Source: Anagrus nilaparvatae (Eukaryota > Arthropoda > Insecta > Hymenoptera > Mymaridae). Taken from it: a stretch of DNA of 64,000 nucleotides. The DNA lies in the NCBI GenBank assembly GCA_022575985.1, contig JAKSXM010000007.1:12154501-12218500 (forward strand), given 5' to 3'. Positions 50,816 to 63,935 of this stretch are shown here, in pieces; position 1 is the stretch's first letter; every line of letters begins with the position of its first letter. The position numbers and the translations under genes were made by a program. The notes below the pieces were generated by a model. The model was not told where the DNA came from. It saw nothing but the letters and a program-made list of their open reading frames with translations, and made no database searches.

Positions 50816-51039
50816 TAATAATTGTTATTTTTTCTATACATACCTTCTAAATTCATAGAAATTAAATAAAAACGAAAGAAAATTTCTTCGAAAAAATTTT
50901 TTCGACAATTTTCTTCGGAAAATTTTTTTCTTTTTAATTTTGACAACTGCCAATATTAATCTTTCTCTTTTATACACATATAACGTTTATGTGCATTTTG
51001 AATCTCGCGCCTTAGTGTATACATGAAATATTGTTTCTA

Positions 51040-51132
51040 TCGCTTCGGTAGGTGTCGCAACGCTTTAAAAATAAACTCGCAAATAAAAATTCGTTTTAAC
51101 ATAATATAAGGAGTGAAAAAAATTGCAAAGGC
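51040..51132 (+). promoter_or_regulatory. Likely U2 snRNA upstream promoter region
   Basis: The 90 bp before the U2 5' end is where a Pol II snRNA promoter (proximal sequence element about 45-65 bp upstream, no TATA) would lie. GTGTCGCAACGC and AACTCGCAAATAAAAATTCG stand out from the AT-rich surroundings, but I cannot prove a PSE. Confidence 0.3.
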
Positions 51133-51180
51133 ATCGCTTCTCGGCCTTTTGGCTAAGATCAAAGTGTAGTATCTGTTCTT
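51133..51180 (+). ncRNA. U2 snRNA 5' segment, first (outer) copy
   Basis: 48 bp identical to the inner copy at 51198-51245. It begins ATCGCTTCTCGGCCTTTTGG and includes the branch-point-pairing GTAGTA at 51166-51171, then TCTGTTCTT. It breaks off into 17 bp of unrelated sequence (AATTTCGACTATATGCG) before the second copy starts. No downstream U2 sequence belongs to it directly. Confidence 0.9.
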
Positions 51181-51197
51181 AATTTCGACTATATGCG

Positions 51198-51247
51198 ATC
51201 GCTTCTCGGCCTTTTGGCTAAGATCAAAGTGTAGTATCTGTTCTTAT
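51198..51247 (+). ncRNA. U2 snRNA 5' segment, inner copy, joined to the retrotransposon
   Basis: Nucleotides 1-50 of U2, including stem I, the GTAGTA branch-point-pairing sequence (51231-51236) and the TATCTGTTCTTAT target (51235-51247). The sequence then leaves U2 (ATTATTC instead of CAGC) and enters the 5' UTR of element 1. The remainder of the gene is at 55967-56119. Together they would make a U2 of about 190 nt, the normal size. Confidence 0.93.
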
Positions 51248-51311
51248 ATTATTCATTAATTTTATAAATTTAATTATAAATTTCATTTATTTTATATTAT
51301 TCATTAATTTT
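51244..51311 (+). repeat. 20-bp direct repeat in the 5' UTR of element 1
   Basis: TTATATTATTCATTAATTTT occurs at 51244-51263 and again at 51292-51311, 48 bp apart. The first copy overlaps the last bases of the U2 target. It looks like a duplication made during 5'-end joining. Confidence 0.85.
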
Positions 51312-51328
51312 TTTTAATACTTACTAAC

Positions 51329-54300
51329 ATGACACATGTGCCAAGAGAACCAGAATTGATAGATGGAACACTGGTGATCTACCACCCTACTCCCTCACCA
51401 GCTCTGTGTTCCATCTGTCACTCACAGGGAAAAAACATGGGTTCATGCAAATCAGTACCGAATATCAGGAGACATTATGTGACAGTGCATAAAATTGAAA
51501 AAACGCGTTATGTTTGTGGCGTGTGTGGGTTTTTTGATGAAACAAGCGGATACCCACTAAATAAAGTTAGAAAACACGCAGAGGCTGCACACCCTGAACT
51601 CACTACTCCTGCTGACCCCAATGTTTCTTCCCAAAATGTAGAGGTGCTGAATAGACGTCAACCTGCTCATGGCTCACGCGCGGTACCCGAAAATATTACT
51701 AACACTACAGCTAACAATGAAAATCAGCAAGCGTCCATCGGGCGGCCGTGCTCCTCACAAGAAAATCAACATCCTTCTAATGGCAATCGATCATCGCAAC
51801 AGAGCAATCCAATTAATGATACAGCATCCATAGAGGATTTTCTTCAAGAATGTCAAGAGCAACAAGAGCCTAGCCATATACAGGGCCAACCTGAAACATC
51901 AGACTTGATAGCTCCTGCAAACCAGTATACAGGACAAACTAGGCGTAGGCGCGTTTTAAGACGCATTAGCAGTAGCAGCGAGTCGTCGGATGACTCACCA
52001 TCAAATTCAGCGGCAAATATGTCAACAGCTAGAGTCCCTTTACAACATACATCCAGCAGCGAACTAACAGTAGCTGCACAAGGAAGTACGGGATACCAAG
52101 AAACGCTGAATGATCTTAATTTTGATTCTGATATCAACCCAGATGAAGGTCCGACGACTTTTAATGAAATACAGCCCCTAGAGGCTCCTAACATCACGGC
52201 TAATGACACTCTTGACAGCAGTACCAGCAATGCTCTAAATACTTCACGGATGTCAATATCAGCAATTTGGAGAGCTCTTGTCTCGCAGATTTCCTGGCCA
52301 CAACCAAACTCAACTTCAGATGATGATCGTGTTTCTCATGACAGCAGCGCAAGCGTTGATCAAATCCATTCACCACTGTCGGCATCATCAGTTGGAAGAG
52401 CGCTTATTACGCCATCATTCCCGACAGATTCCAGCTCAGCACTAGAGGACACGACCGTGCCAGACGTACCAGTAAGTACATCAACGCAGAACACGCGACG
52501 CGAAATCGATATCCGAGCCATGCAGGTGACGCATACTGAATATGACCCGAGTCTCGGCATAGATGTTTCTACAACATCCCCCAGTACTGATGTCACAAAC
52601 GAAGGTAGTTACATGACAATAAGTGACCTGACGAACGAACAGACCCGGGAAAATACTATTCTCAATCCTTCTGCAAACAGAAATCTTCACAACCAGCCAG
52701 TGCCTGAAGCGCCTCCAAGAGCGACTGTTGGTCGGGGTAGTCGCAATATACCACGACAACAACAGCCGACTGTTGAGCAGGCTGAGCTAATGACGATACT
52801 GGATGGTGTAGTGAACCCGCAGCAACTTGAGGAAATTGCGCCTCAAGTTGCTAGTTTTCTAGGTAGATTTTCTAATGTAGAGGATGAGAATCGACATCAA
52901 ACTGTTCGACGTAGACATAATAACAATCGACCTCCAAGAGCAGTCCCGAGAGACGCGGAGGTTGATCGAATCGCTGCGGCGACTCGACTACAGAGCCTCT
53001 ACCGTAATAATAGAAAGAAGGCGATTCAAAAGGTTTTAAATGGCCCTATGCCAGTATGCGATATTGACAAACATAGGGTCCAAGAATATTTTACAAATGT
53101 ACACGCCATACGAGACTCTGCAGGCGAGTTGCCTGCTGTTTTCGATCAGCCACCGCCAAGTAGGGAAAGCTGTGATCGCCTGACTGCGCCAATTTCAAGG
53201 GTAGAAGTCGTAAAGAGACTCTGGAAAATGAGTAATTCGTCCCCTGGACCGGACAGGGTAACATACAAAGACTTGAAAAAGGCGGACCCAGGCTGTCATG
53301 TGCTCACTGCCTACTTTAACAAGGTGATGCAACTCGAGACTGTTCCTTCAAGTTGGACAACTTCCAACACCGTCCTTTTATATAAAAAGGGCGAAACACA
53401 GGATTTACGAAACTGGAGACCGATTGCCATGGGAGACACCACCCCAAAGCTTTACGCTGCTATTATGGCTGACCGGATTACAACCTGGGCAGTCGCTAAT
53501 AGTCGGCTGAGCGCATCTCAGAAGGGCTTCCTGAATTACGAAGGTTGCTACGAGCACAACTTCGTGATGCAGGAGGCCATTCTCGATGCACGAAATAGCA
53601 AGAAGGAGGTCGTCATAGCATGGTTAGACTTAACCAATGCTTTCCCATCCGTTCCCCATGATTCAATACATAAGGCCCTCGAGGCACATGGGCTTCCTGA
53701 AAAAACAAGACGGATCATAAAGTCACTTTACAGTAACTTGACCACTCAAGTACGAACTACCGCAGGATACACTGATCCAATTCGCATTCTTTCGGGAGTC
53801 AGACAGGGATGTCCATTGAGTCCCATAATATTTAATCTCACACTTGAACCTGTTCTAAGGTCTGTCCAAAGAACAGGTCAAGGTTACCAATTATCTAATC
53901 AAAAAATCAACAATTTAACGTATGCGGATGATATGGCATTCCTGGCGGATTCAGTTGAGGGAATGCGCACGCTTCTAAGAACAGCTGAGGAAGCGTCTAC
54001 CTTGGTGGGACTCACATTTAATCCCCAAAAATGCGCATCACTACACCTTAAAGGTCGTGGGGATGGTGCAGTCTTACCAACGGTCTTTACTATCGAAGGA
54101 CAGTGTATCCAGACACTACGATCCGGTGACCCTTACCAACATTTAGGCATCCCTACTGGGTACGAGGTGCGTCAAACTCCTGTGTCATCTATCGAGGATG
54201 TCAGGCAGGACCTTGCTAAGATCAATGACTCCTTGTTGGCCCCTTGGCAGAAGCTCGACGCTATGTCGACCTTTATATTACCAAGGCTAGATTTTTTACT

Positions 54301-55573
54301 CCAAGGTGCCAACGTGGAGAAAAAACCTCTTAAAGAGGCCGATAAAGTAATTAAAAAAATGGCAAAAAATTGGATGAGCCTTCCTCAGAGAGCTAGTGCG
54401 GAGGTTGTCTTTCTCCCCCCGAACAGGGGTGGGGGAGGCCTACTTCCTCTAGCCGATATGGTCGATTTGCTGACCGTCGCACATGCATTCAAGATTTTAA
54501 CCTGCAAAGATGCGACTGTGAGTGAATTGGCCATGTCGTCACTCAGAGAGGCCACCTCTATTAGGATGAAAAAAGAGGCTTCTGAGGTTGATTGCGCAAG
54601 GTTTCTGTCGGGCAGCCTTGATGATGACATGATGGTGGGAACACAGACAGATTCCTTCTGGTCCAGGTCGAGAAATGCTGCCCGTAGGCAAATTACCCGA
54701 CTTGGATTGAAATGGCACTGGAGTGTAGACCGCCACGAATACTCACTAGAGTGCAACACGACAGGAGACAGGACAGTAGTTGTGCTTCCACAGTCCAGAT
54801 CACAGATAATACGCAGGATGCGAGCAGCTCTTACTGGTCATTACTTAAAATCACTGCTCGCTAAAAAAGACCAGGGTAAGGTTTTTGAAATAACAAGCAA
54901 GTGCAAGTTTTCAAATCACTATTTGCGATCTGGAAGCTTCACTCGCTTTTGTGACTGGCGCTTTGTTCATCGAGCTAGACTCAATTGTCTACCACTAAAT
55001 GCGGCTAGACATTGGGAAAGGCAAGGTGACAAACGCTGTCGTAAATGCGGCCACCCGCAAGAAACCTTGCCCCATGTTATCGGGCACTGTGGAGTGCACG
55101 CAGACGCGATCCAAAGACGACACAATAATATACAGGACCGTCTCGTTAAAGCACTAAAGACCCGTGGGACAGTGACTACAAACCGGACTATACCAGGAGA
55201 AGTCGGCGATTTGGCCATACTGCGTCCTGACATTGTCATACGTGACGATGTCAAGCGTCATATAATTATTATCGATGTAACCGTTCCCTTTGAGAACCGT
55301 ATGGTCGCATTTGACGAGGCTAGACAACGTAAAGTTGATCATTACCATCTCCTAGCCGAGAGTCTCAGAGGAAAGGGTTACACGGTTGAAGTAGATGCCT
55401 TTGTCGTTGGCTCTCTTGGTGGATGGGACTGGCGAAACGAGCGGATCATCAGACTCCTTAACATCAACCAGCGTTATGCGCAGATGATGAGGAGCCTGAT
55501 GATAAGCGATACGATTCGCTGGTCAAGAGACATATATGTCGAACACGTTTCTGGAGTACGGCAATATAATTAA
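51329..55573 (+). CDS. Utopia-like retrotransposon polyprotein (reverse transcriptase and restriction-like endonuclease), element 1
   Basis: 1414 residues in a single uninterrupted frame from the first ATG. Two N-terminal C2H2 fingers (Cys27, Cys30, His49, His54; Cys63, Cys66, His83, His88) probably bind target DNA. Residues about 95-500 are a Ser/Thr/Gln/Pro-rich disordered linker. A conserved helical block (ATRLQSLYRNNRKKA) precedes the reverse transcriptase, about 600-960: WRPIAMGDTTPKLYA, WLDLTNAFPSVPHD (catalytic Asp767), GVRQGCPLSP (823-832) and YADD (865-868). Beyond lies the thumb and linker, a CCHC knuckle (Cys1237, Cys1240, His1249, Cys1254), and a PD-(D/E)XK endonuclease (Pro1300-Asp1301, Asp1316). 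The protein should nick U2 DNA and prime reverse transcription on the nick. All catalytic residues are present; the frame ends SGVRQYN. Confidence 0.95.
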   Translation: MTHVPREPELIDGTLVIYHPTPSPALCSICHSQGKNMGSCKSVPNIRRHYVTVHKIEKTRYVCGVCGFFDETSGYPLNKVRKHAEAAHPELTTPADPNVSSQNVEVLNRRQPAHGSRAVPENITNTTANNENQQASIGRPCSSQENQHPSNGNRSSQQSNPINDTASIEDFLQECQEQQEPSHIQGQPETSDLIAPANQYTGQTRRRRVLRRISSSSESSDDSPSNSAANMSTARVPLQHTSSSELTVAAQGSTGYQETLNDLNFDSDINPDEGPTTFNEIQPLEAPNITANDTLDSSTSNALNTSRMSISAIWRALVSQISWPQPNSTSDDDRVSHDSSASVDQIHSPLSASSVGRALITPSFPTDSSSALEDTTVPDVPVSTSTQNTRREIDIRAMQVTHTEYDPSLGIDVSTTSPSTDVTNEGSYMTISDLTNEQTRENTILNPSANRNLHNQPVPEAPPRATVGRGSRNIPRQQQPTVEQAELMTILDGVVNPQQLEEIAPQVASFLGRFSNVEDENRHQTVRRRHNNNRPPRAVPRDAEVDRIAAATRLQSLYRNNRKKAIQKVLNGPMPVCDIDKHRVQEYFTNVHAIRDSAGELPAVFDQPPPSRESCDRLTAPISRVEVVKRLWKMSNSSPGPDRVTYKDLKKADPGCHVLTAYFNKVMQLETVPSSWTTSNTVLLYKKGETQDLRNWRPIAMGDTTPKLYAAIMADRITTWAVANSRLSASQKGFLNYEGCYEHNFVMQEAILDARNSKKEVVIAWLDLTNAFPSVPHDSIHKALEAHGLPEKTRRIIKSLYSNLTTQVRTTAGYTDPIRILSGVRQGCPLSPIIFNLTLEPVLRSVQRTGQGYQLSNQKINNLTYADDMAFLADSVEGMRTLLRTAEEASTLVGLTFNPQKCASLHLKGRGDGAVLPTVFTIEGQCIQTLRSGDPYQHLGIPTGYEVRQTPVSSIEDVRQDLAKINDSLLAPWQKLDAMSTFILPRLDFLLQGANVEKKPLKEADKVIKKMAKNWMSLPQRASAEVVFLPPNRGGGGLLPLADMVDLLTVAHAFKILTCKDATVSELAMSSLREATSIRMKKEASEVDCARFLSGSLDDDMMVGTQTDSFWSRSRNAARRQITRLGLKWHWSVDRHEYSLECNTTGDRTVVVLPQSRSQIIRRMRAALTGHYLKSLLAKKDQGKVFEITSKCKFSNHYLRSGSFTRFCDWRFVHRARLNCLPLNAARHWERQGDKRCRKCGHPQETLPHVIGHCGVHADAIQRRHNNIQDRLVKALKTRGTVTTNRTIPGEVGDLAILRPDIVIRDDVKRHIIIIDVTVPFENRMVAFDEARQRKVDHYHLLAESLRGKGYTVEVDAFVVGSLGGWDWRNERIIRLLNINQRYAQMMRSLMISDTIRWSRDIYVEHVSGVRQYN

Positions 55574-55966
55574 TTAATATTAAAATATACTTATTCATAC
55601 ATTTCTTTTTTTTCTATTTTTAAATTTATTTCTGTTCTTTTATTACTTTCATTCTGCTGTAATGCCTACCCAGTCACGTTTCAAGGGTCATATTCAATTA
55701 TTTATTTATTTATTAAGCAAGTAATTATAGATTTTTTTTTATAATCAAAATTTTATATTGTTTGTTATACAAATAATTTTTTTTATCTTTATTTAATTAT
55801 AAGCAGATTTATATTTATATTTATGTAAATTTACATTATATGCTATGTTAATCTAAGCAAAAATGAATTTAATAGAGGGGACTGGAGGCCCCGCAATTCC
55901 TCCAATAAAATGTAAATTTTTACCCTCCCCTTGTGGGGGGGCAGTTCTTTTTGAATAAATATTGTT
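55574..55966 (+). promoter_or_regulatory. 3' UTR of element 1 with a conserved hairpin pair
   Basis: 55874-55946 can form GGAGG/CCTCC around CCCCGCAATT, then CCCTCC/GGGGGG around a short loop, ending GCAGTT about 20 nt before the target. Element 2 has the same arrangement with a different stem sequence. In R2-type elements such 3' structures are what the reverse transcriptase recognises; that role here is inference. Confidence 0.6.
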
Positions 55967-56119
55967 TATCTGTTCTTATCAGCTTGATATCTGGTACGCC
56001 TCTCATAGAGAGGCCAGAATATCGAACTGATTTTTGGAAACAGGCGAAAAGTCCGGGGCTTGCTCCGTTTTCGCCACGGGTCGACCTTGCCTTGCAGTAC
56101 CGCGAGGAACGGCCCAATA
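55967..56119 (+). ncRNA. U2 snRNA 3' segment, copy 1 (interrupted gene)
   Basis: Starts at TATCTGTTCTTATCAGC and continues through stem II (GCCTCTCATAGAGAGGC), the Sm site ATTTTTGG (56030-56037), stem III (GGCGAAAA 56043-56050 with TTTTCGCC 56068-56075, loop GCTTGCTCC) and stem-loop IV (TTGCAGTACC loop), ending CGGCCCAATA. All U2 landmarks are intact, except that the U2B''-binding loop starts with C (56091) where U2 usually has A. Without its first 37 nt it cannot make a normal snRNA. Confidence 0.93.
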
Positions 56120-57968
56120 ATTAATTTAAAGATTAATTTTTCTAATAAAGGGTTTCCAAAGATCACTTCGATGTTCTAAGTGCGCGTGTGTTTGCTCGGG
56201 GCTTCGTTCGTGCGGTGGTTGCGGTGCCCGGACCAGGGAGCGCCAGCGGTAAGTCTGCATCTACCTAACACCTATATGCTTTCCTCTTTCCTCTCTCTAC
56301 TCCTCTCTCAATAGTTTCCAGGATACATGCGTGCGTGCCGTTCTTCTGTATATGCAAATATATAGCAGAACGCGCCAAATGCTTCCGCCCCCACTCGCAA
56401 ACCGCATGGCGAAATAATTATATATTTTTTTTAACACAGCTATTGTTTAAATAACCATCTATTTTTTTTCTAATTACAATAACTCCTTTTTTATTAAATA
56501 TGGTTTATTTACTTATTCCCTCTAATTTTCTCCCAAAATTTATTTCAGCTAATTATAAAAAGTGATAGTTATATTCGCGTGTGTTTCTTGTGATAATAGC
56601 AGTAAGAAGTGTAGTTCGCGGGTGTTTTCGTGTGAGCCAAATACATGTGTATTCCAGTTATTAAAACACTCGCAAAATAATTTTAATCTTACCTAAAAAG
56701 TGTAAAATACCATGTACATGTATGTATATATGGGTATATATGCATATTTATATGCATATATATGTATATATATAAGTATATATGTATATGGTTATGCCCG
56801 CATATATATATATATATATATATTTATCATCTCAAAAAATTACATGTATTGGTACGAGCACCGGCGGGCTCTCTTCGTATTTTAAATTAACGTTAATTTC
56901 ACGAACATTGTTTCTGCAACAATGTACGTATATTATTTATTAAGAAAAAATTAATTTATAGTTAAAACGTGCATAAACTTTTACTTTTTTTTTATTTTCT
57001 TACTTAAAAAAGGCTCTTTCTCTTTCCTTTGCACGAGCGAAGAAGAAGAACGAAAGGAGGCCCCGTAAATTCAAAAATAGTGCGTACGATAAGGCTGTCT
57101 GTAACGTGCAAATAGCTCTTTTATCTTAGCACACGATCGTTCTTCTTGACTCATTTTTTTTTTTTTCTTTATTTTTAGAGAATGAAACTGAGAAATATGA
57201 ATGATCGTTTAATTATTTACTCAACTTTTATCGTTTTTATAGCAATAGATATAGTATAACAATAACAATTAAATATTTTTATTATAAAAAATCGGTTTTT
57301 TCTCTCTTTTTTTTTCTCATGTACAAGTTCGCGAGAAACACAAATAGCTAAAAGCGAGTAGCATATCACTTCGGCATGCGGGGAACGAACGAAAGCGGCA
57401 AGCTTCGCGGTGATTTATTTAACAGCTTTTTTATTATAATTTTCTATTTTTATATTTCTTTGTTGCGCCGACACAGTATGTATCCACAGTTCTCGAGCCT
57501 AGCTATACAAATAGCAAGGAAGCATACCTCCTAAGGGCCCCGAGTACGCGCTCTCTGATTTACTCCTCCGGAGTGAAACCGAGAGCGATGCACGGGGTCT
57601 CCGGCACGTTAGTCACTAGATACTCGAGCGGCTCGGTGACCTGTACAAGTTTACGGGGTACGGTTGCAAGGGGATTCTAGTGCATAAGCCCATGCTCGCT
57701 TTTTGTCGGTCTATCGGGGCTACACGCACGGCTGTGTGATGCATACGTATTTTATCCTGCACCATACGGTACAACTCGCGTGTGGCTTCCGGTGGACCGG
57801 CAGAGAGATAGCATTCTTTAAAAATGAAAATTTTGCTTTTTTTTTCCGCTTTCTTCTTTCTTTTTTTCTTATCAGCATATAGGTGGTATTTGCGGACGAC
57901 GCAGGGGCTCCCGGGGCCGGGCGCCGCGGCTAGCGGTCGCGTGTGGCTCCGAGCTCTCGCACTGTAGT
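56120..57968. other. Region between the two U2 elements: mixed GC, no ORF
   Basis: Contains GC-richer patches (56185-56260, 57340-57420, 57480-57800, 57895-57960) separated by T-rich and TATA-repeat tracts (56715-56825). A donor-like site (GCCAGCG/GTAAGTCT, exon end 56248) is followed 66 bp later by a pyrimidine-rich acceptor (CTCTCAATAG/TTTCC), so a spliced non-coding transcript is possible. No protein frame is seen. It may be old U2-repeat spacer, the promoter region of another gene, or a UTR. Confidence 0.4.
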
Positions 57969-57992
57969 ATCAAGTGTAGTAATCTACTTATT
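57969..57992 (+). pseudogene. Possible degenerate U2 5' scrap before element 2
   Basis: ATCAAGTGTAGTA (57969-57981) followed by ATCTACTTATT lines up with U2 positions about 26-50 (ATCAAAGTGTAGTATCTGTTCT) with small gaps. It is the only U2-like sequence on + that I find upstream of element 2. The sequence before it does not match U2, so this may be chance. Confidence 0.3.
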
Positions 57993-58520
57993 TTATCCTA
58001 TCTATTTATACTGTATATTTTAATACATATTATTTATTTTTTAATATAAATCAATTTTATTATTATAACTTTATATATATAAACATAGTCATATATATTT
58101 TTTAGCATTTTTACCAAATATTTAAGTATACATCCAACAAATAACCTTTGATCTCAGCCCTGATTTTCTCTAATCTAGTCAAAGTTATATTATTCGTTTT
58201 TTAACATATATATTGTTTAAATTATATTTCATTTTTTTTTATTATAAAGCTTTTTTTAAACATAAAAACCCCGCGTAGAAAATTAAGAGCGAGAAGCGAC
58301 CCACAGCCAACACATTCGCATTATCTCTTGGTGCTAATTTTTCAAATAATTAATCAACTCATATTCTTTTTTTTTTCAAAAATTACAATTGTCCTATTAT
58401 TATTATTGCTATTATTTTTAATTTTATGTAAAAGTTTTTTCAAACATTTAGATTACTGATCCTTTTTGCAAAATTTTTAATTTTTTTTTTTTCTGTTCAC
58501 TTTTTTTATTCTTTTTTTTT
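57993..58520 (+). other. Probable 5' UTR of element 2
   Basis: AT-rich, with T-tracts just before the start codon as in element 1. TCGCTTCTCG occurs on the minus strand at about 58288-58297, a ten-base match to the U2 5' end in the wrong orientation and probably chance. Confidence 0.4.
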
Positions 58521-61500
58521 ATGATGTCACAAGCACTAAGAGACCCCGAAGTGGTAGACGGGATACTGGTTATTTACTTACCAATACCAACACCAGTAAA
58601 GTGTCCCGCCTGCTACACGGGGAGGAAAGCGGGGACGTACAGTGGAATACAAAACATCAGGAGGCACTACAAACTGTATCATAAAATAGAGAGCGCAAAA
58701 GCAGTTTGTAATATTTGTGGTCTGGTCAATGAGACCAGATACGGAGTTAAAATAATTAATGCGCATATAGTCGAAAAACATCCTACAGCCGCCCCTCCTG
58801 ATGTTCCCTGTCCCTCGCAGAATGCGGAGGTGTCGGTAAGACGCTCACTCGTAGATGGCTCCGACGCGTCGCCCGATCCAATTAATTCTAGGCGCAGCAC
58901 CAGCACCAGCAGCACCAGTCAACCAACAGCAGGGCGGTCATCATTTTACATCGAGCAACAGCGCCAATTTCAACTACGCCGCTCAGGAAACCAACAGCAA
59001 CTGCCTGCAGCGAGGCGCTCAGGACCAGGCCAAGCAGCTCCACCAGCTCAGCCAAAAAGACCTGCAGCCCCACGGCCGTCCACCAGTAGCCGTCCAAGGG
59101 CAGCCCAAGCAAATCAACAGCTAGCTAAGGGCAAAGGTACTAGCGCTACACGTCAGCACCACCAGCAGCCGGTACCAGAAAGAAACTCTCCATCCAGCAG
59201 CATAGTCGTAGTGGAGGACTCGCCCCGGGGACAAATAGAAGCTAGCCAAACTTCTCAGAGCCAGCCTCAACCACCATCTTTTAATGAAACACCCCCGGTG
59301 GCATTACCTACAAACTTAAGGCGCATCCGGAATAGACTTGACAGCAATAGCAGCGATTCGGCGGGCGAGTCACCTGACAGATCGATATTAGATCTTCTAC
59401 CACCATTAACATACCCCGGTCAACTGCCAGCAACAAGTGACTCTGAAATCACGACGCAGGTACCACGGGAAGATCAGGTGATGCTCTTAAGAGCAAACGA
59501 CATCAATGAAGCAGCGGGCCCGTCGACACCAGCTAGGTCGGTGCCTATTGAAGCCCGGCCTACCCAAGATGCTGCCAATTTAAACATCGATAACGACATT
59601 GGCGGGAGTCCTCCCCCAACAACACCACCACCATCACCGCAGGAATGGAGAGCTCTATTCTCGCAGGAGGTCCTGCCAGCAACTCCACCAGCTGAAGAAG
59701 AAATGGCCGCCCCAGAAATGCCAACTACACCAGGTACTTCTATTACGCGACGCGATCACGATAACAGAGCCACGCGAGCGTCGTCTTTTGACCAGGGCCC
59801 AAGAATCCACGTAGATGCCCCCGAAATATCCTCAAATAGTCCTTCATACACACTCACACCTACTGACGAACTGACACAAGCCCAGAGCACGGAGGAAACC
59901 CCCCTTTCTACTTTCTCACGAGAAACCCTCACCGCCCCGCTAGCATCTGAGACACTGCCAGTAACGACTGCTGGGCGTGGTAACCGCAATGTACCACGTG
60001 ACCGGCAGCCGTCTGCTGAGCAGCTTCAGTTAATGACGATGCTAGAGGAAGTGGAGAGCTTACAGCAACTTGAGGCTATTGCACCGCAAGTTGCTGGTTT
60101 TTTAGGAAGATTTTCTCGAGTAGAGGAGGGGGGGCAACAGCAACCACGAAACAGAAACAGGCCCCGACAAGCGGCTTCAGGGAACGCGGAGGCAGATCGA
60201 ATCGCTGAGGCGACTCGACTACAGAGTCTCTATAGAAACAATCGAAAAAAGGCCATGCAAAAGGTTTTAAACGGACCTACCCAGAATTGTGAAATAGCAA
60301 AAGATGAAATTGAAAGATATTATGAAGGGGTGCATGCCATAAGAGACTCTGGAGGCGAGTTGCCCCCAGTTTTCGATCAGCAACCGCCAAGTAGAACGAG
60401 TTGTGACAGCCTGGTTGCGCCAATTTCCCGCCAGGAGATTTCGCGTAGACTTTGTAAGATGACAAATTCATCTCCTGGACCCGACGGTGTAACTTACAAA
60501 GATTTGAAAAAGGCGGACCCAGGCTGCCATGTACTCGCTTCTTACTTTAACAAGGTTATGGACCTTGAAGCCGTACCCCAATCATGGAAAACATCAAATA
60601 CTGTACTGCTCTATAAAAAGGGCGATAAAAATGACATTAGGAATTGGAGGCCAATAGCCATGGGTGACACGACTCCTAAGCTCTATGCTGCCATTATGGC
60701 TGACAGGATAACCTCCTGGTCGGTTGTTAATGGAAGACTGAGTGCGTCGCAGAAGGGCTTCCTGCACTACGAAGGATGCTACGAGCACAACTTCGTGCTA
60801 CAGGAGGCCATTCACGATGCGCGGACGGTCAAAGGAGAAATTGTCATCGCTTGGCTCGACTTAACTAACGCATTTCCTTCCGTTCCACATGACTCCATAA
60901 ACAAATCCTTAGAAGCACACGGACTACCTACGAAGACTAGACAAATTATAAAATCATTGTACGACGGACTGACGACAAGAATTAGAACCACAACAGGCTA
61001 TACAGACCCAATACGCATTCTTTCAGGGGTCAGGCAGGGGTGCCCGTTGAGCCCCATAGTGTTCAACCTTACCCTTGAATCGGTTCTGAGGTCCATCCAA
61101 AGAACAGATCAAGGATATAGGCTAGGTAACTCTAAGATCTCTAACCTAACCTATGCGGACGATATGGCGCTCATGTCTGACTCGATAGAAGGAATGAAAT
61201 CCCTGCTAAGAGCAGCGGAGGATGCGGCTACTGTTGTTGGTCTAGCGTTTAACCCTGGCAAATGTGCTACTCTTCACCTTAAAGGTCGCAGGGAAAACGC
61301 TGTGCAGACAACAGTTTTCGCCATACAGGGTCAGAATATTAAAGCTCTAGCCAAACATGAACCATACGGACATCTAGGGATTCCAACGGGATACGAAGTG
61401 CGGCAGACCCCCGTATCGTCTATCGAGGACGTTCGACAGGACTTAACTAAAATTGATGCATCTTTCCTGGCCCCGTGGCAGAAGTTCGACGCGGTAGCAA

Positions 61501-62804
61501 CCTTTGTTCTTCCACGACTCGACTTCTTGTTGCAGGGTGCAGACGTAGAAAAAACGCCACTGAAACACACGGATAAGCTGATTAAAAAGCTCTCCAAAAA
61601 ATGGCTTTTTCTTCCTCAGAGAGCCAGTGCGGAAGTGGTCTTTCTTCCCTCAAGTAGAGGTGGGGGAGGACTGCTCCCGCTGGCCGATATGGTCGACTTG
61701 CTGACGGTCGCACACGCATTTAAAATTTTAACCTGCAAGGATGCGACAGTCAGTGAGTTGGCCATGTCGTCACTCAAAAAAGCAACTGTGCAGAGGATGA
61801 AAAAGCCAGCAACGGAAGCTGATTGCGCGCGTTTCCTGTCGGGCAGCCTCGATGCCGATATGATGGTGGGTACACAAACAGCCTCGTTCTGGTCCAGGGC
61901 GAGGAACGCGGCTCGTAGACAAGTTACTCGTCTTGGGCTGAAATGGAGATGGAGTGAAAATCGCATGGAGTATTCCCTGGAATGCAATAGTACTAACGAC
62001 AGGACTGTAGTAGTGCTTCCCCAGTCAAGATCACAAATAATAAGTAGAATGCGTACAGCATTGACTGAGCATTATGCGAAGTCATTACTCGCCAAGAAAG
62101 ATCAAGGTAAGGTCTTCGAGGTCACAGAAAAGTGTAAATTTTCAAATCATTTTTTACGGTCGGGTAGCTTTACACGATTCTGTGACTGGCGTTTTGTGCA
62201 CCGAGCCAGACTCAACTGCGTCCCGCTTAACGCGGCGAGACACTGGGAAAGGCAAGGAGACAAACGCTGCCGACAATGCGGCCACCCGCAAGAGACCTTG
62301 CCGCATGTGATTGGCCACTGCGGGGTGCACTCTGAAGCCATTCAAAAGCGACACAATAACGTACAGGACAGACTTGTAAAAGCTATGAAGGTACAAGGGA
62401 CTGTTGACACTAACAAAACAGTTCCGGGAGAAGAAGGCGAATTGGCGGCATTGCGTCCTGACATCGTTATTCGTGACGAGGTCAGGCGCAAAATCTGTAT
62501 CATTGATATCACTATCCCATTTGAAAACCGGAAGGTTGCGATCGATGAAGCAAGACAGCGAAAAATTGATAAATACACACCGCTTGCTGAGAGCCTTCGG
62601 GGAAAGGGATATCAAGTTACAGTGGAGGCCTTCGTCGTCGGCTCCTTAGGCGGATGGGACTGGCAAAACGAGCGGATCATCAGACTTCTCAACATCCATG
62701 AGCGATATGCACGGATGATGAGGAGCCTGATGATTAGCGATACGATTCGCTGGTCCAGGGACATCTACGTGGAACACGTATCAGGTATTAGACAATATAA
62801 TTAA
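58521..62804 (+). CDS. Utopia-like retrotransposon polyprotein, element 2
   Basis: 1427 residues, one uninterrupted frame. The order is as in element 1. C2H2 finger 1 has Cys28, Cys31, His49, His54, and finger 2 has Cys63, Cys66, His82, His87. The Pro/Gln/Ser-rich linker at about 95-510 is the most diverged part, although TRRDHDNRATR and TAGRGNRNVPR match short blocks of element 1. Then come TRLQSLYRNNRKKA, a reverse transcriptase with WLDLTNAFPSVPHD, GVRQGCPLSP (836-845) and YADD (878-881), a CCHC knuckle (Cys1250, Cys1253, His1262, Cys1267), and an endonuclease with RPD (1312-1314) and IIDIT. It ends SGIRQYN, as element 1 ends SGVRQYN. Two ATGs occur at the start (MM); the first is used here. 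All catalytic residues are present, so it may be active. Confidence 0.95.
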   Translation: MMSQALRDPEVVDGILVIYLPIPTPVKCPACYTGRKAGTYSGIQNIRRHYKLYHKIESAKAVCNICGLVNETRYGVKIINAHIVEKHPTAAPPDVPCPSQNAEVSVRRSLVDGSDASPDPINSRRSTSTSSTSQPTAGRSSFYIEQQRQFQLRRSGNQQQLPAARRSGPGQAAPPAQPKRPAAPRPSTSSRPRAAQANQQLAKGKGTSATRQHHQQPVPERNSPSSSIVVVEDSPRGQIEASQTSQSQPQPPSFNETPPVALPTNLRRIRNRLDSNSSDSAGESPDRSILDLLPPLTYPGQLPATSDSEITTQVPREDQVMLLRANDINEAAGPSTPARSVPIEARPTQDAANLNIDNDIGGSPPPTTPPPSPQEWRALFSQEVLPATPPAEEEMAAPEMPTTPGTSITRRDHDNRATRASSFDQGPRIHVDAPEISSNSPSYTLTPTDELTQAQSTEETPLSTFSRETLTAPLASETLPVTTAGRGNRNVPRDRQPSAEQLQLMTMLEEVESLQQLEAIAPQVAGFLGRFSRVEEGGQQQPRNRNRPRQAASGNAEADRIAEATRLQSLYRNNRKKAMQKVLNGPTQNCEIAKDEIERYYEGVHAIRDSGGELPPVFDQQPPSRTSCDSLVAPISRQEISRRLCKMTNSSPGPDGVTYKDLKKADPGCHVLASYFNKVMDLEAVPQSWKTSNTVLLYKKGDKNDIRNWRPIAMGDTTPKLYAAIMADRITSWSVVNGRLSASQKGFLHYEGCYEHNFVLQEAIHDARTVKGEIVIAWLDLTNAFPSVPHDSINKSLEAHGLPTKTRQIIKSLYDGLTTRIRTTTGYTDPIRILSGVRQGCPLSPIVFNLTLESVLRSIQRTDQGYRLGNSKISNLTYADDMALMSDSIEGMKSLLRAAEDAATVVGLAFNPGKCATLHLKGRRENAVQTTVFAIQGQNIKALAKHEPYGHLGIPTGYEVRQTPVSSIEDVRQDLTKIDASFLAPWQKFDAVATFVLPRLDFLLQGADVEKTPLKHTDKLIKKLSKKWLFLPQRASAEVVFLPSSRGGGGLLPLADMVDLLTVAHAFKILTCKDATVSELAMSSLKKATVQRMKKPATEADCARFLSGSLDADMMVGTQTASFWSRARNAARRQVTRLGLKWRWSENRMEYSLECNSTNDRTVVVLPQSRSQIISRMRTALTEHYAKSLLAKKDQGKVFEVTEKCKFSNHFLRSGSFTRFCDWRFVHRARLNCVPLNAARHWERQGDKRCRQCGHPQETLPHVIGHCGVHSEAIQKRHNNVQDRLVKAMKVQGTVDTNKTVPGEEGELAALRPDIVIRDEVRRKICIIDITIPFENRKVAIDEARQRKIDKYTPLAESLRGKGYQVTVEAFVVGSLGGWDWQNERIIRLLNIHERYARMMRSLMISDTIRWSRDIYVEHVSGIRQYN

Positions 62805-63281
62805 AATTTATTCTCTTAAATTCTGTAAATAAATTATTGTAAATAAATTCTTTTTCTTTCCTTTTTTTTATGTCTGAACTGATGCGTAACTAGGGCTCTT
62901 TAAAACATAAGACTAAAGCACACAAAGGTGTATTATATTTTAATTAAATGTCAATTTTTTTAAAATTTTTTTATATTTTGTAAAAAATTATATTATTTTT
63001 GAAAAGACGTACCTGACAAATCCTTCTAAAAGGATTTATAAATATGTTTATATACTAGCAATCTATTACCAATAAGACTGATTAATACTATATTATATGT
63101 ATATATTATTGTAAATTTTATTTATTTATTTATACAAATTTTATAGTTATAATAAATCTATTAATTGTTAATTTTTAAGTAAAAATGAAGTAATAGAGGG
63201 GACGGTGGGGCCTCGCAATTTCCCCACCAAATGTAATTTACCCTCCTTCGGGGGGGCAGTTATTTGAAAAAATAAACGTCT
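62805..63281 (+). promoter_or_regulatory. 3' UTR of element 2 with a conserved hairpin pair
   Basis: 63194-63260 forms GGTGGGG/CCCCACC around CCTCGCAATTT, then CCCTCC/GGGGGG closed by TTCG, then GCAGTT. This matches element 1's layout with changed but still paired stem bases. Confidence 0.65.
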
Positions 63282-63434
63282 TATCTGTTCTTATCAGCTT
63301 GATATCTGGTACGCCTCTCATAGAGAGGCCAGAATATCGAACTGATTTTTGAAAACAGACGGAATGTCCGGGGCTTGCTCCGATTCCGTCACGGGTCGAC
63401 CTTGCATTGCAGTACCGCGAGGAACGGCCCAATA
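63282..63434 (+). ncRNA. U2 snRNA 3' segment, copy 2 (interrupted gene)
   Basis: Same extent as copy 1. Stem III is GACGGAAT (63358-63365) with ATTCCGTC (63383-63390), paired throughout but differing from copy 1 at three base pairs. The Sm site is ATTTTTGA (63345-63352), and the U2B'' loop has the usual ATTGCAGTACC. The 5' part of this gene is missing or unrecognisable in the window. Confidence 0.92.
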
Positions 63435-63935
63435 AACTAATTCAAAAATAAACCGCTTTAAATAACCGTAATACGGCCGTTTTACGGTGACGACAAATTC
63501 GTCGGTAACGGGATGAAAAAAGGTACCTTTAGGGCTATAATACTGGTCCTATAAACTCAGTTATAATTTACGGTTTCCTTATGTAATGTAATTAAAAAAA
63601 ATAATTTTTTATGCCCTTAATCCCCTTAATCCTATTTTTTTATGCCCTTAATCCCCTTTAATCCCCCTTAATCCTATAATTACTCTCTTTATCCCCATTA
63701 CTGCCATATTAAGGTGATAGCGAATTTTTCTTGGTTATTATACATACTTATTAAATTATTTAATAATATTTATTTATAGGTTATTGTCAATTTTGAAATC
63801 TATATTAAAATTGAATATTTCTTTAGGATATTATTGATCAATAATGGAACCAAATTTTTGTTATTAATAAAAAACAATTTTTATTGTATCAACGTTTCAA
63901 TTACATTAAGTAATCCTTATCAAGATTCTACAAAA
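63435..63935. other. Spacer after the second U2 segment
   Basis: GC-richer start (ACGGCCGTTTTACGG, GACGACAAATTCGTCGG), then short tandem TTATGCCCTTAATCCCC / CCCTTAATCCT repeats at about 63608-63680, then AT-rich DNA. No gene is seen. Confidence 0.5.

Follow-up and report, generated by a model that had tools for sequence, protein, structure and literature searches.

Why should the 5' half of a U2 small nuclear RNA (snRNA) gene stand twice in a row in front of a retrotransposon? The question is raised by a 64,000-nt stretch of the genome of the wasp Anagrus nilaparvatae (contig JAKSXM010000007.1, positions 12,154,501 to 12,218,500; hereafter the window), in which U2 nucleotides 1-49 occur at 51133-51181 and again at 51198-51246, with a 16-nt filler in between. 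A 36-nt piece of this U2 5' stretch occurs twice in the window versus 0 expected. The window also holds two elements of the Utopia lineage, A and B, arranged head to tail and each with an open reading frame (ORF) that is intact; B went unnoticed in an earlier reading made from the letters alone (the sequence-only reading). The best reading of the arrangement, as judged by sequence, is that B, and not A as that earlier account had it, interrupted the host U2 gene (51133-51181 plus 63282-63434), A being nested in a U2-type leader that belongs to B. We propose, with a probability of about 0.72, that Utopia RNA starts at the U2 transcription start, so that full-length copies recapture U2. The features on which the argument draws are as follows.

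51000..51132, + strand: upstream (promoter) region of the host U2 gene; -70 to -1 agrees at 69 of 70 positions with the contiguous host U2 loci L039, L042 and L043 (132-nt BLAST match, 97-98%)
51133..51181, + strand: host U2 nt 1-49, 5' half of the gene hit by B
51182..51197, + strand: 16-nt filler at the B 5' junction; nt 2-16 are the reverse complement of B 58762-58776
51198..51247, + strand: U2 nt 1-50 of the B leader; begins exactly at +1 without a promoter (17/70 identity to the host upstream region)
51248..55966, + strand: element A, Utopia lineage, 5'-truncated in its 5' untranslated region (5'UTR) and nested inside the U2 leader of B
51329..55573, + strand: ORF A, 1414 aa, with two N-terminal zinc fingers, reverse transcriptase (RT; YADD), CCHC and restriction-like endonuclease (RLE) motifs
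55574..55966, + strand: 3'UTR of A; terminal hairpins resemble those of B (folding energy z -0.89 for A, -0.66 for B)
55967..56119, + strand: leader U2 nt 38-190, of the leader type; contains the A target duplication 55967-55979
56120..58520, + strand: 5'UTR of B, 2.4 kb, common to other Utopia copies
56152..56177, - strand: U2 nt 87-112, the surroundings of the Sm site, in inverted orientation directly behind the leader U2; 26 nt at 88% identity, E 0.03 in the search that found it
56249..56254, + strand: GTAAGT in the 5'UTR, splice-donor-like in sequence only; present at 32.37 Mb too
57478..57943, + strand: conserved structured RNA in the 5'UTR of the A and B families
58521..62804, + strand: ORF B, 1427 aa, domain layout as in A
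62805..63281, + strand: 3'UTR of B
63282..63434, + strand: host U2 nt 38-190 (main type), 3' half of the B-interrupted gene; its 3' flank is similar to the one behind the contiguous host U2 L043
63932..64000, + strand: third element, B3, from its 5' truncation near codon 78; continues past the window end

U2 pieces in the window

By sequence, the U2 pieces sort into one host gene and one element-borne U2 split by A. The host gene comprises a promoter with nt 1-49, then nt 38-190 with a host 3' flank; the element-borne U2 is promoterless, starts at +1 and ends in Utopia 5'UTR. Infernal matches U2 at 55943-56122 (117.6 bits) and 51198-51403 (63.5 bits), with a gathering score of 46, and detects a second U2 3' half behind element B at 63260-63437 (115.5 bits). 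The pieces named in the sequence-only reading, nt 1-50 at 51198-51247 and nt 38 to the end at 55967-56119, are thus real, and its 1414-codon ORF is found at 51329-55573, although the first copy of nt 1-49, inside the stretch that it described, had gone unmentioned. The duplication TATCTGTTCTTAT that it saw does flank A on both sides, but the 13 bp are partly ambiguous: because the A 3' end ...GTTTA is also found in the non-U2 insertions L066 and L090, the strict length is 11 bp. In the window, TATCTGTTCTTA has four exact occurrences, and five matches with at most one mismatch compare with 0.85 expected. Its claim of target-primed insertion agrees with what is expected of a U2-targeting element with RT and RLE at the Utopia site, and the ORF is open.

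The filler corresponds, in antisense, to coding sequence of B and not of A, and the 5' junction therefore fits an insertion of B; 37 of 200000 shuffled fillers do as well in the window. Other candidates were rejected. One U2 gene with one insertion leaves the 5'-half duplication, the second 3' half and the two U2 types unexplained. A duplication produced as a cotranscript by A was dropped: loci elsewhere in the genome give the long 5'UTR to B, and the filler matches B. A degraded U2 5' half near 57968, just upstream of B, is not significant, its score being reached by 46 of 300 shuffles.

An assembly join at the locus is unlikely, because the window sits inside a 74.1-Mb contig and the same junction types occur at other loci. 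That an assembly artefact or a segmental duplication made the duplicated 5' half and the two-element block might be argued from the difficulty of assembling repeats near U2 genes and from the identity of B and B3 over 4362 nt; yet the 3' flanks of B and B3 differ, promoterless +1 starts occur at four separate sites, and we consider such an origin very improbable.

U2 loci across the genome

The 488.7-Mb assembly was searched with the U2 3' part as query; 40 of 46 candidates were scored, which makes the resulting counts lower bounds, and 30 were cut out as loci. At least seven loci are of the host main type, three of them contiguous (L039, L042, L043) and four directly behind B 3' ends (L037, L038, L040, L041). 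At least six are contiguous and divergent (L045, L048-L052), and at least four carry leader-type U2 with a complete 3' end (L034, which is the window, L035, L036 and L044). All four of these complete leader-type 3' ends run into Utopia 5'UTR, versus 0/7 for the host main type and 0/6 for the divergent contiguous loci, L052 having a 24-nt stray 5'UTR match located upstream of its U2.

Between the leader and host types of U2, 7 of 153 sites are different; because six of these differences form three compensated pairs (115-145, 118-142 and 121-139; the seventh lies in a loop), the leader has kept its fold during evolution, as an RNA would. The window leader is identical to the 32.37-Mb leader (153/153), with the adjoining stretch at 81% (234/289 nt); L036 shows seven differences from the window leader, and L044 has deletions.

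The 5' ends carry the argument further. A pattern search with up to 3 mismatches returned 11 U2 5' ends genome-wide, all of them exact, and its reversed-pattern control returned 0. Seven of the 11 have the host upstream region (the window as reference, the six others identical at 48-69 of 70 nt). The remaining four, without the host promoter (17-24/70 identity), start exactly at +1 behind four different upstream sequences, and each then enters Utopia sequence. They lie at 51198, after host U2 1-49 and the filler; at 7.507 Mb, after U2 38-50 and TTG; and, outside host U2 genes, at 32.359 Mb and C95:18.609 Mb. In several R2 elements the length of the 5' duplication fits the ribozyme cleavage site in 28S, as described in PMC3774820. 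By analogy, a duplication mark at the first nucleotide of the gene points to a transcription start.

These loci could instead form a gene array in which leader-type U2s are ordinary host genes, B having deleted the 5' half of the next gene and A having hit the upstream one. Published arrays lend themselves to this, the Phytophthora cases described by Kojima and Jurka (PMC4640811) having intact U2 genes, not 5' fragments, upstream of Utopia, which are read there as deletion on insertion; leader-type U2 also retains the U2 fold and a 3' flank. An array of this kind would not, however, predict the same U2/5'UTR junction at four loci with diverged 5'UTRs (74-84% to the window, pieces >40 nt), one of which (32.37 Mb) then leads into an element outside U2. 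Moreover, a promoter is missing from the leader at 51198, which is not needed to account for the two halves of the window host gene. We regard the array as quite improbable.

Several other U2-related loci were seen in this search. L046 and L047 (on C95 and C11) share an A-type 3' end, leader-type U2 nt 39-123 and an identical non-U2 flank at both places, and may represent a chimeric unit copied as a whole. L048-L052 are five contiguous divergent U2s (79-84%), of which L048-L051 have GGCCTCTGGC in the first stem region; they are possible U2 variants. The remaining 11 loci (L053-L063), like further matches, belong to a dispersed repeat on many contigs that covers U2 nt ~48-142 at 79-82% identity; its flanks are common to most copies, making it a separate repeat.

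Target-site use by the A and B families

Thirty Utopia loci were cut out from 73 matches, 25 with the 3'-end motif; L086 was read through L035, and the motif was not shown in L069, L089, L091 and L093. Insertions at the same U2 position, which the sequence-only reading had suggested seeking, are the rule for B (5/5 readable copies in U2) but account for just two of the 21 A 3' ends that could be read. Both of these lie in leader-type U2, as do the A-type ends of L046 and L047, which came up in the search with U2. Other A copies lie at TATCTG- or TATCTA-like sites (L072, L083, L084) or share one flank (L081 and L087). By their insertion sites, a strict family (B) and a loose family (A) coexist in one genome, and among the copies read the loose family entered U2 only on leader-type copies.

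The bottom-strand junction of A lies between nt 39 and 40 (38/39 in human numbering). Target duplications measure 11-13 bp for window A and for the truncated 7.50-Mb B, and 10-12 bp for window B. The 13.65-Mb B has none; its truncated end, in the 5'UTR, meets host U2 1-38, the two overlapping by AGT. The 7.504-Mb B is truncated in the ORF and stands behind a host promoter and U2 1-50. In another host gene, at 7.5 Mb, the order is similar to that of the window, namely host promoter, U2 1-50, 5'-truncated B, U2 38-50, TTG and a +1 leader (internally deleted), followed by 5'UTR, B and host U2 38-190. The B subfamily there is 99.9-100% identical among three copies and 90.7-91.8% identical to window B. 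B3 (also C62:12222963) is ORF-truncated, and its target U2 has no adjoining 5' half or promoter; it is truncated no more than ~27 nt away from the part of B to which the filler corresponds.

Both B copies with a full 5'UTR (window and 7.51 Mb) have a U2 leader, and none of the three truncated B copies does. At 32.37 Mb, leader-type U2 and 5'UTR precede an A element with a non-U2 3' flank, and the leader is therefore not tied to a host U2 locus. Among the ten A copies whose 5' region was examined, five have 5'UTR sequence, three of them U2-associated (32.373 Mb, 32.366 Mb via the upstream nested copy, and C95:18.61 Mb). The sequence-only reading took A for an intact and possibly active element; its ORF is open, but the element is incomplete and lacks most of the 5'UTR, the 32.37-Mb A copy having ~2.2 kb between leader U2 and ORF and window A only 81 nt. 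B is the better candidate for recent activity, because B and B3 are identical (4362/4362 nt) in two different U2 loci.

Proteins, domains and phylogeny

The A and B proteins are 64.6% identical over 1357 aligned codons and 80.9% identical over the RT-to-RLE part. Purifying selection is what this divergence points to, because dN is 0.13 with saturated dS in the RT-to-RLE part. Each protein has two N-terminal zinc-finger patterns, an RT with YADD, a CCHC motif and RLE motifs, that is, the single ORF with N-terminal zinc finger(s), RT and C-terminal CCHC and RLE by which Utopia is recognized, and the insertion in U2 has its 3' flank from human nt 39, as in Utopia. The C-terminal part of the element protein (residues 1215-1387) aligns with that of R2. 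A Pfam scan at E≤0.01 yielded no apurinic endonuclease (APE) family, by which Keno is recognized, and no protease family corresponding to the Ulp1-like protease of NeSL. The target is neither the spliced-leader exon of NeSL (B sits in U2) nor the 28S rDNA of R2, U2 being the target here. A scan of IMG/VR gave no relative of the element protein; it returned 33 pattern matches.

A quick RT tree of 121 rows, with Shimodaira-Hasegawa-like approximate likelihood ratio test (SH-aLRT) support only and three R2 rows set as outgroup, was built from the best 120 of 195 matches in a search with A, minus 4 short ones; the software flagged long branches that meet at the root (Ladona fulva with R2). Among the matches listed, A and B are sisters (SH-aLRT 96), then joined by P0001 (99), and share an 8-row clade (98) with a protein of Nasonia vitripennis. 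This clade lies inside a 41-row clade (100) that is separate from the R2 outgroup and has mostly Hymenoptera among its named rows. A and B thereby group, among the same matches, with proteins of listed Utopia hosts, such as N. vitripennis and Camponotus floridanus; N. vitripennis is among the Utopia hosts described by Kojima and Jurka (2015, PMC4640811). The assignment to Utopia in the sequence-only reading fits the target, the domains and the hymenopteran clade with N. vitripennis, though the tree holds no sequences labelled Utopia, NeSL, R4, R5 or Keno; as we use it, the name would rest on target site, domain layout and host species overlap.

Two rows named Parnassius and Arctia (Lepidoptera; P0004 and P0007) lie inside the wasp Utopia clade, which may reflect parasitoid contamination or horizontal transfer. 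Elsewhere in the window lies a fl(2)d/WTAP exon whose top match is 97% identical and whose closest named relative is from Leptopilina boulardi (63%), followed by bees and ants; an apocritan hymenopteran is thus the most likely host.

A conserved RNA in the 5'UTR

The block 57478-57943 could be aligned in six copies of the A and B families at 72-98% identity; two pairs are 98% identical, leaving about four distinct lineages. Its consensus fold has -175.6 kcal/mol, versus -74.1 (standard deviation 5.1) in 30 column shuffles that do not keep dinucleotides, with 25 of 140 pairs changed on both sides and 45 of 824 cells broken. The window sequence 57535-57943 alone has a fold z of -6.1 versus dinucleotide shuffles, of which 0/100 were as good. 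Rfam holds no fitting family for 57478-57943, the one weak match being ASdes (15.9 bits vs a gathering score of 40). Because the start codon lies 2.4 kb behind the U2 leader, the likeliest role of this predicted RNA would be cap-independent translation or binding of the Utopia protein.

The inverted U2 copy at 56152-56177 pairs with the Sm-site region of the leader in the predicted fold, and related sequence is present in L035, the 7.51-Mb copy, L036 and L044. The 3'UTR hairpins of A and B are alike, yet their folding energy is no better than that of shuffles. No HDV-type (hepatitis delta virus) ribozyme match was found with Rfam at 51060-51500 (E≤10) or 56100-58560 (E≤5).

Proposed mechanism

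Based on the above data, we propose that the full-length Utopia RNA would run from the U2 transcription start through U2, 5'UTR and ORF to the 3'UTR. The endonuclease would nick the bottom strand of host U2 at nt 39/40 (38/39 in human numbering), reverse transcription would be primed from the nick, and full-length cDNA would terminate at U2 +1. The top strand would be opened near nt 49/50, and a short filler would come to lie where the ends are joined. Because the new copy would bring along a U2 leader, it would offer a fresh target for the next Utopia, and nested arrays would therefore arise. Transcription from the U2 start, the top-strand cut near nt 49/50 and a function of the leader are all steps that we infer.

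A competing explanation is template jumping, in which the RT, at the end of a (truncated) Utopia RNA, jumps to free U2 snRNA, and the promoterless U2s are chimeras. The RT of LINE-1 jumps to U6 snRNA. The leader resembles U6 pseudogenes and LINE-1 chimeras in that another RNA is fused to retrotransposon sequence, but these are one-off template switches, whereas here the leader is joined to a common 5'UTR at several loci. LINE-1 chimeras with other RNAs, as well as U6 pseudogenes with template switching, have reportedly been published (PMC4476161, PMC13174262). A jump accounts for the +1 start equally well, and at 32.36 Mb and on C95 the U2 pieces (~32-35 nt) abut 5'-truncated Utopia sequence. 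It leaves unexplained, however, why in 4/4 cases leader-type U2 brings along the 3' flank that belongs to it and adjoins Utopia 5'UTR, and why the sequence type of the window leader is absent from the contiguous U2 genes found. We judge template jumping to be improbable.

Several observations weigh against our proposal that Utopia RNA starts at the U2 transcription start. The claim of a transcription start relies on the established 5' end of the U2 RNA, taken as +1. None of the leader U2s is uninterrupted at present: three of the four complete leader 3' ends follow a Utopia 3' end, the fourth follows a rearranged piece, and the leader at 7.51 Mb has an internal deletion. A host promoter running without a break into a leader was not found at any locus. 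The short U2 pieces at 32.36 Mb and C95 enter truncated Utopia coding sequence and count here because a template jump to U2 snRNA gives the same product. The A copies on C342 and C196 lack the 5'UTR start and show no U2, and the leader-type U2s of L046 and L047 stop at nt 123 and enter non-Utopia flank. Lastly, many real 16-mers of the window recur with a second 15-mer copy (475/7732 when GC-matched, 1197/20000 at any GC content), and the filler match is therefore supportive only. No U2 5' half was found in the stretch examined upstream of the 13.607- and 13.620-Mb leader copies.

A bolder version of the proposal, which we think rather unlikely, makes the leader part of a working U2 gene, so that insertion would rebuild the U2 gene that it breaks and one promoter would drive both U2 and element. 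If the 5' end of a full-length cDNA annealed to the 5' half of host U2, the product would have promoter, complete U2, 5'UTR and ORF in series. The element would be expressed by read-through past the 3' box from the U2 promoter, the inverted Sm-site copy could keep the read-through RNA from small nuclear ribonucleoprotein assembly, and translation could be initiated cap-independently by the large 5'UTR RNA. If this were true, it would be a new way of life for a retrotransposon, which would carry and repair the very gene that it targets.

Relation to known elements and significance

The elements resemble Utopia, and especially Utopia-1_NVit of Nasonia as described in PMC4640811, in RT and RLE, N-terminal zinc fingers, wasp host, a 3' junction at human U2 nt 38/39 and tandem insertions. 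As there, disrupted U2 genes outnumber intact ones, here by 4 to 3 among main-type loci. Unlike published Utopia, our copies carry a 5' U2 leader that starts at +1 and lacks a promoter; A and B have a short target duplication, none being reported for arthropods in PMC4640811; and a strict B family and a mostly non-U2 A family share one genome, families just partly in U2 being also included in Utopia in that paper. The word "promoter" has 0 occurrences in its main text, and searches of the open-licence PubMed Central literature gave no later paper on U2-carrying Utopia.

R2, which sits in 28S rRNA genes, likewise has an RLE. As PMC3774820 describes, 9-36 nt of upstream 28S remain on certain R2 RNAs, and 28S duplications and extra nucleotides mark the 5' junction of certain R2 insertions. 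Unlike R2, the Anagrus elements target U2, and the R2 rows are separate in the tree, where they were set as outgroup; and whereas an HDV-like ribozyme sets the R2 5' end, there is no such match in the regions scanned here and the leader reaches the first nucleotide of the gene. Keno shares the 3' flanking U2 sequence (PMC4640811) but uses an APE endonuclease, unlike the RLE of the present elements.

Kojima and Jurka (PMC4640811) discuss how such elements persist when the target U2 has few copies; of the seven main-type host U2 3' halves in the present assembly, four stand behind a B element. With its covarying structure, the 5'UTR RNA is a specific candidate for an element that acts in translation or binds protein, and a carried U2 would be an alternative reading for the intact U2 genes upstream of Phytophthora Utopia. 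If our proposal is true, the element would rely on the promoter of its host, would need no ribozyme and would multiply the sites on which it can land; subsequent copies could then enter element-borne U2 and spare the host genes, as A did here.

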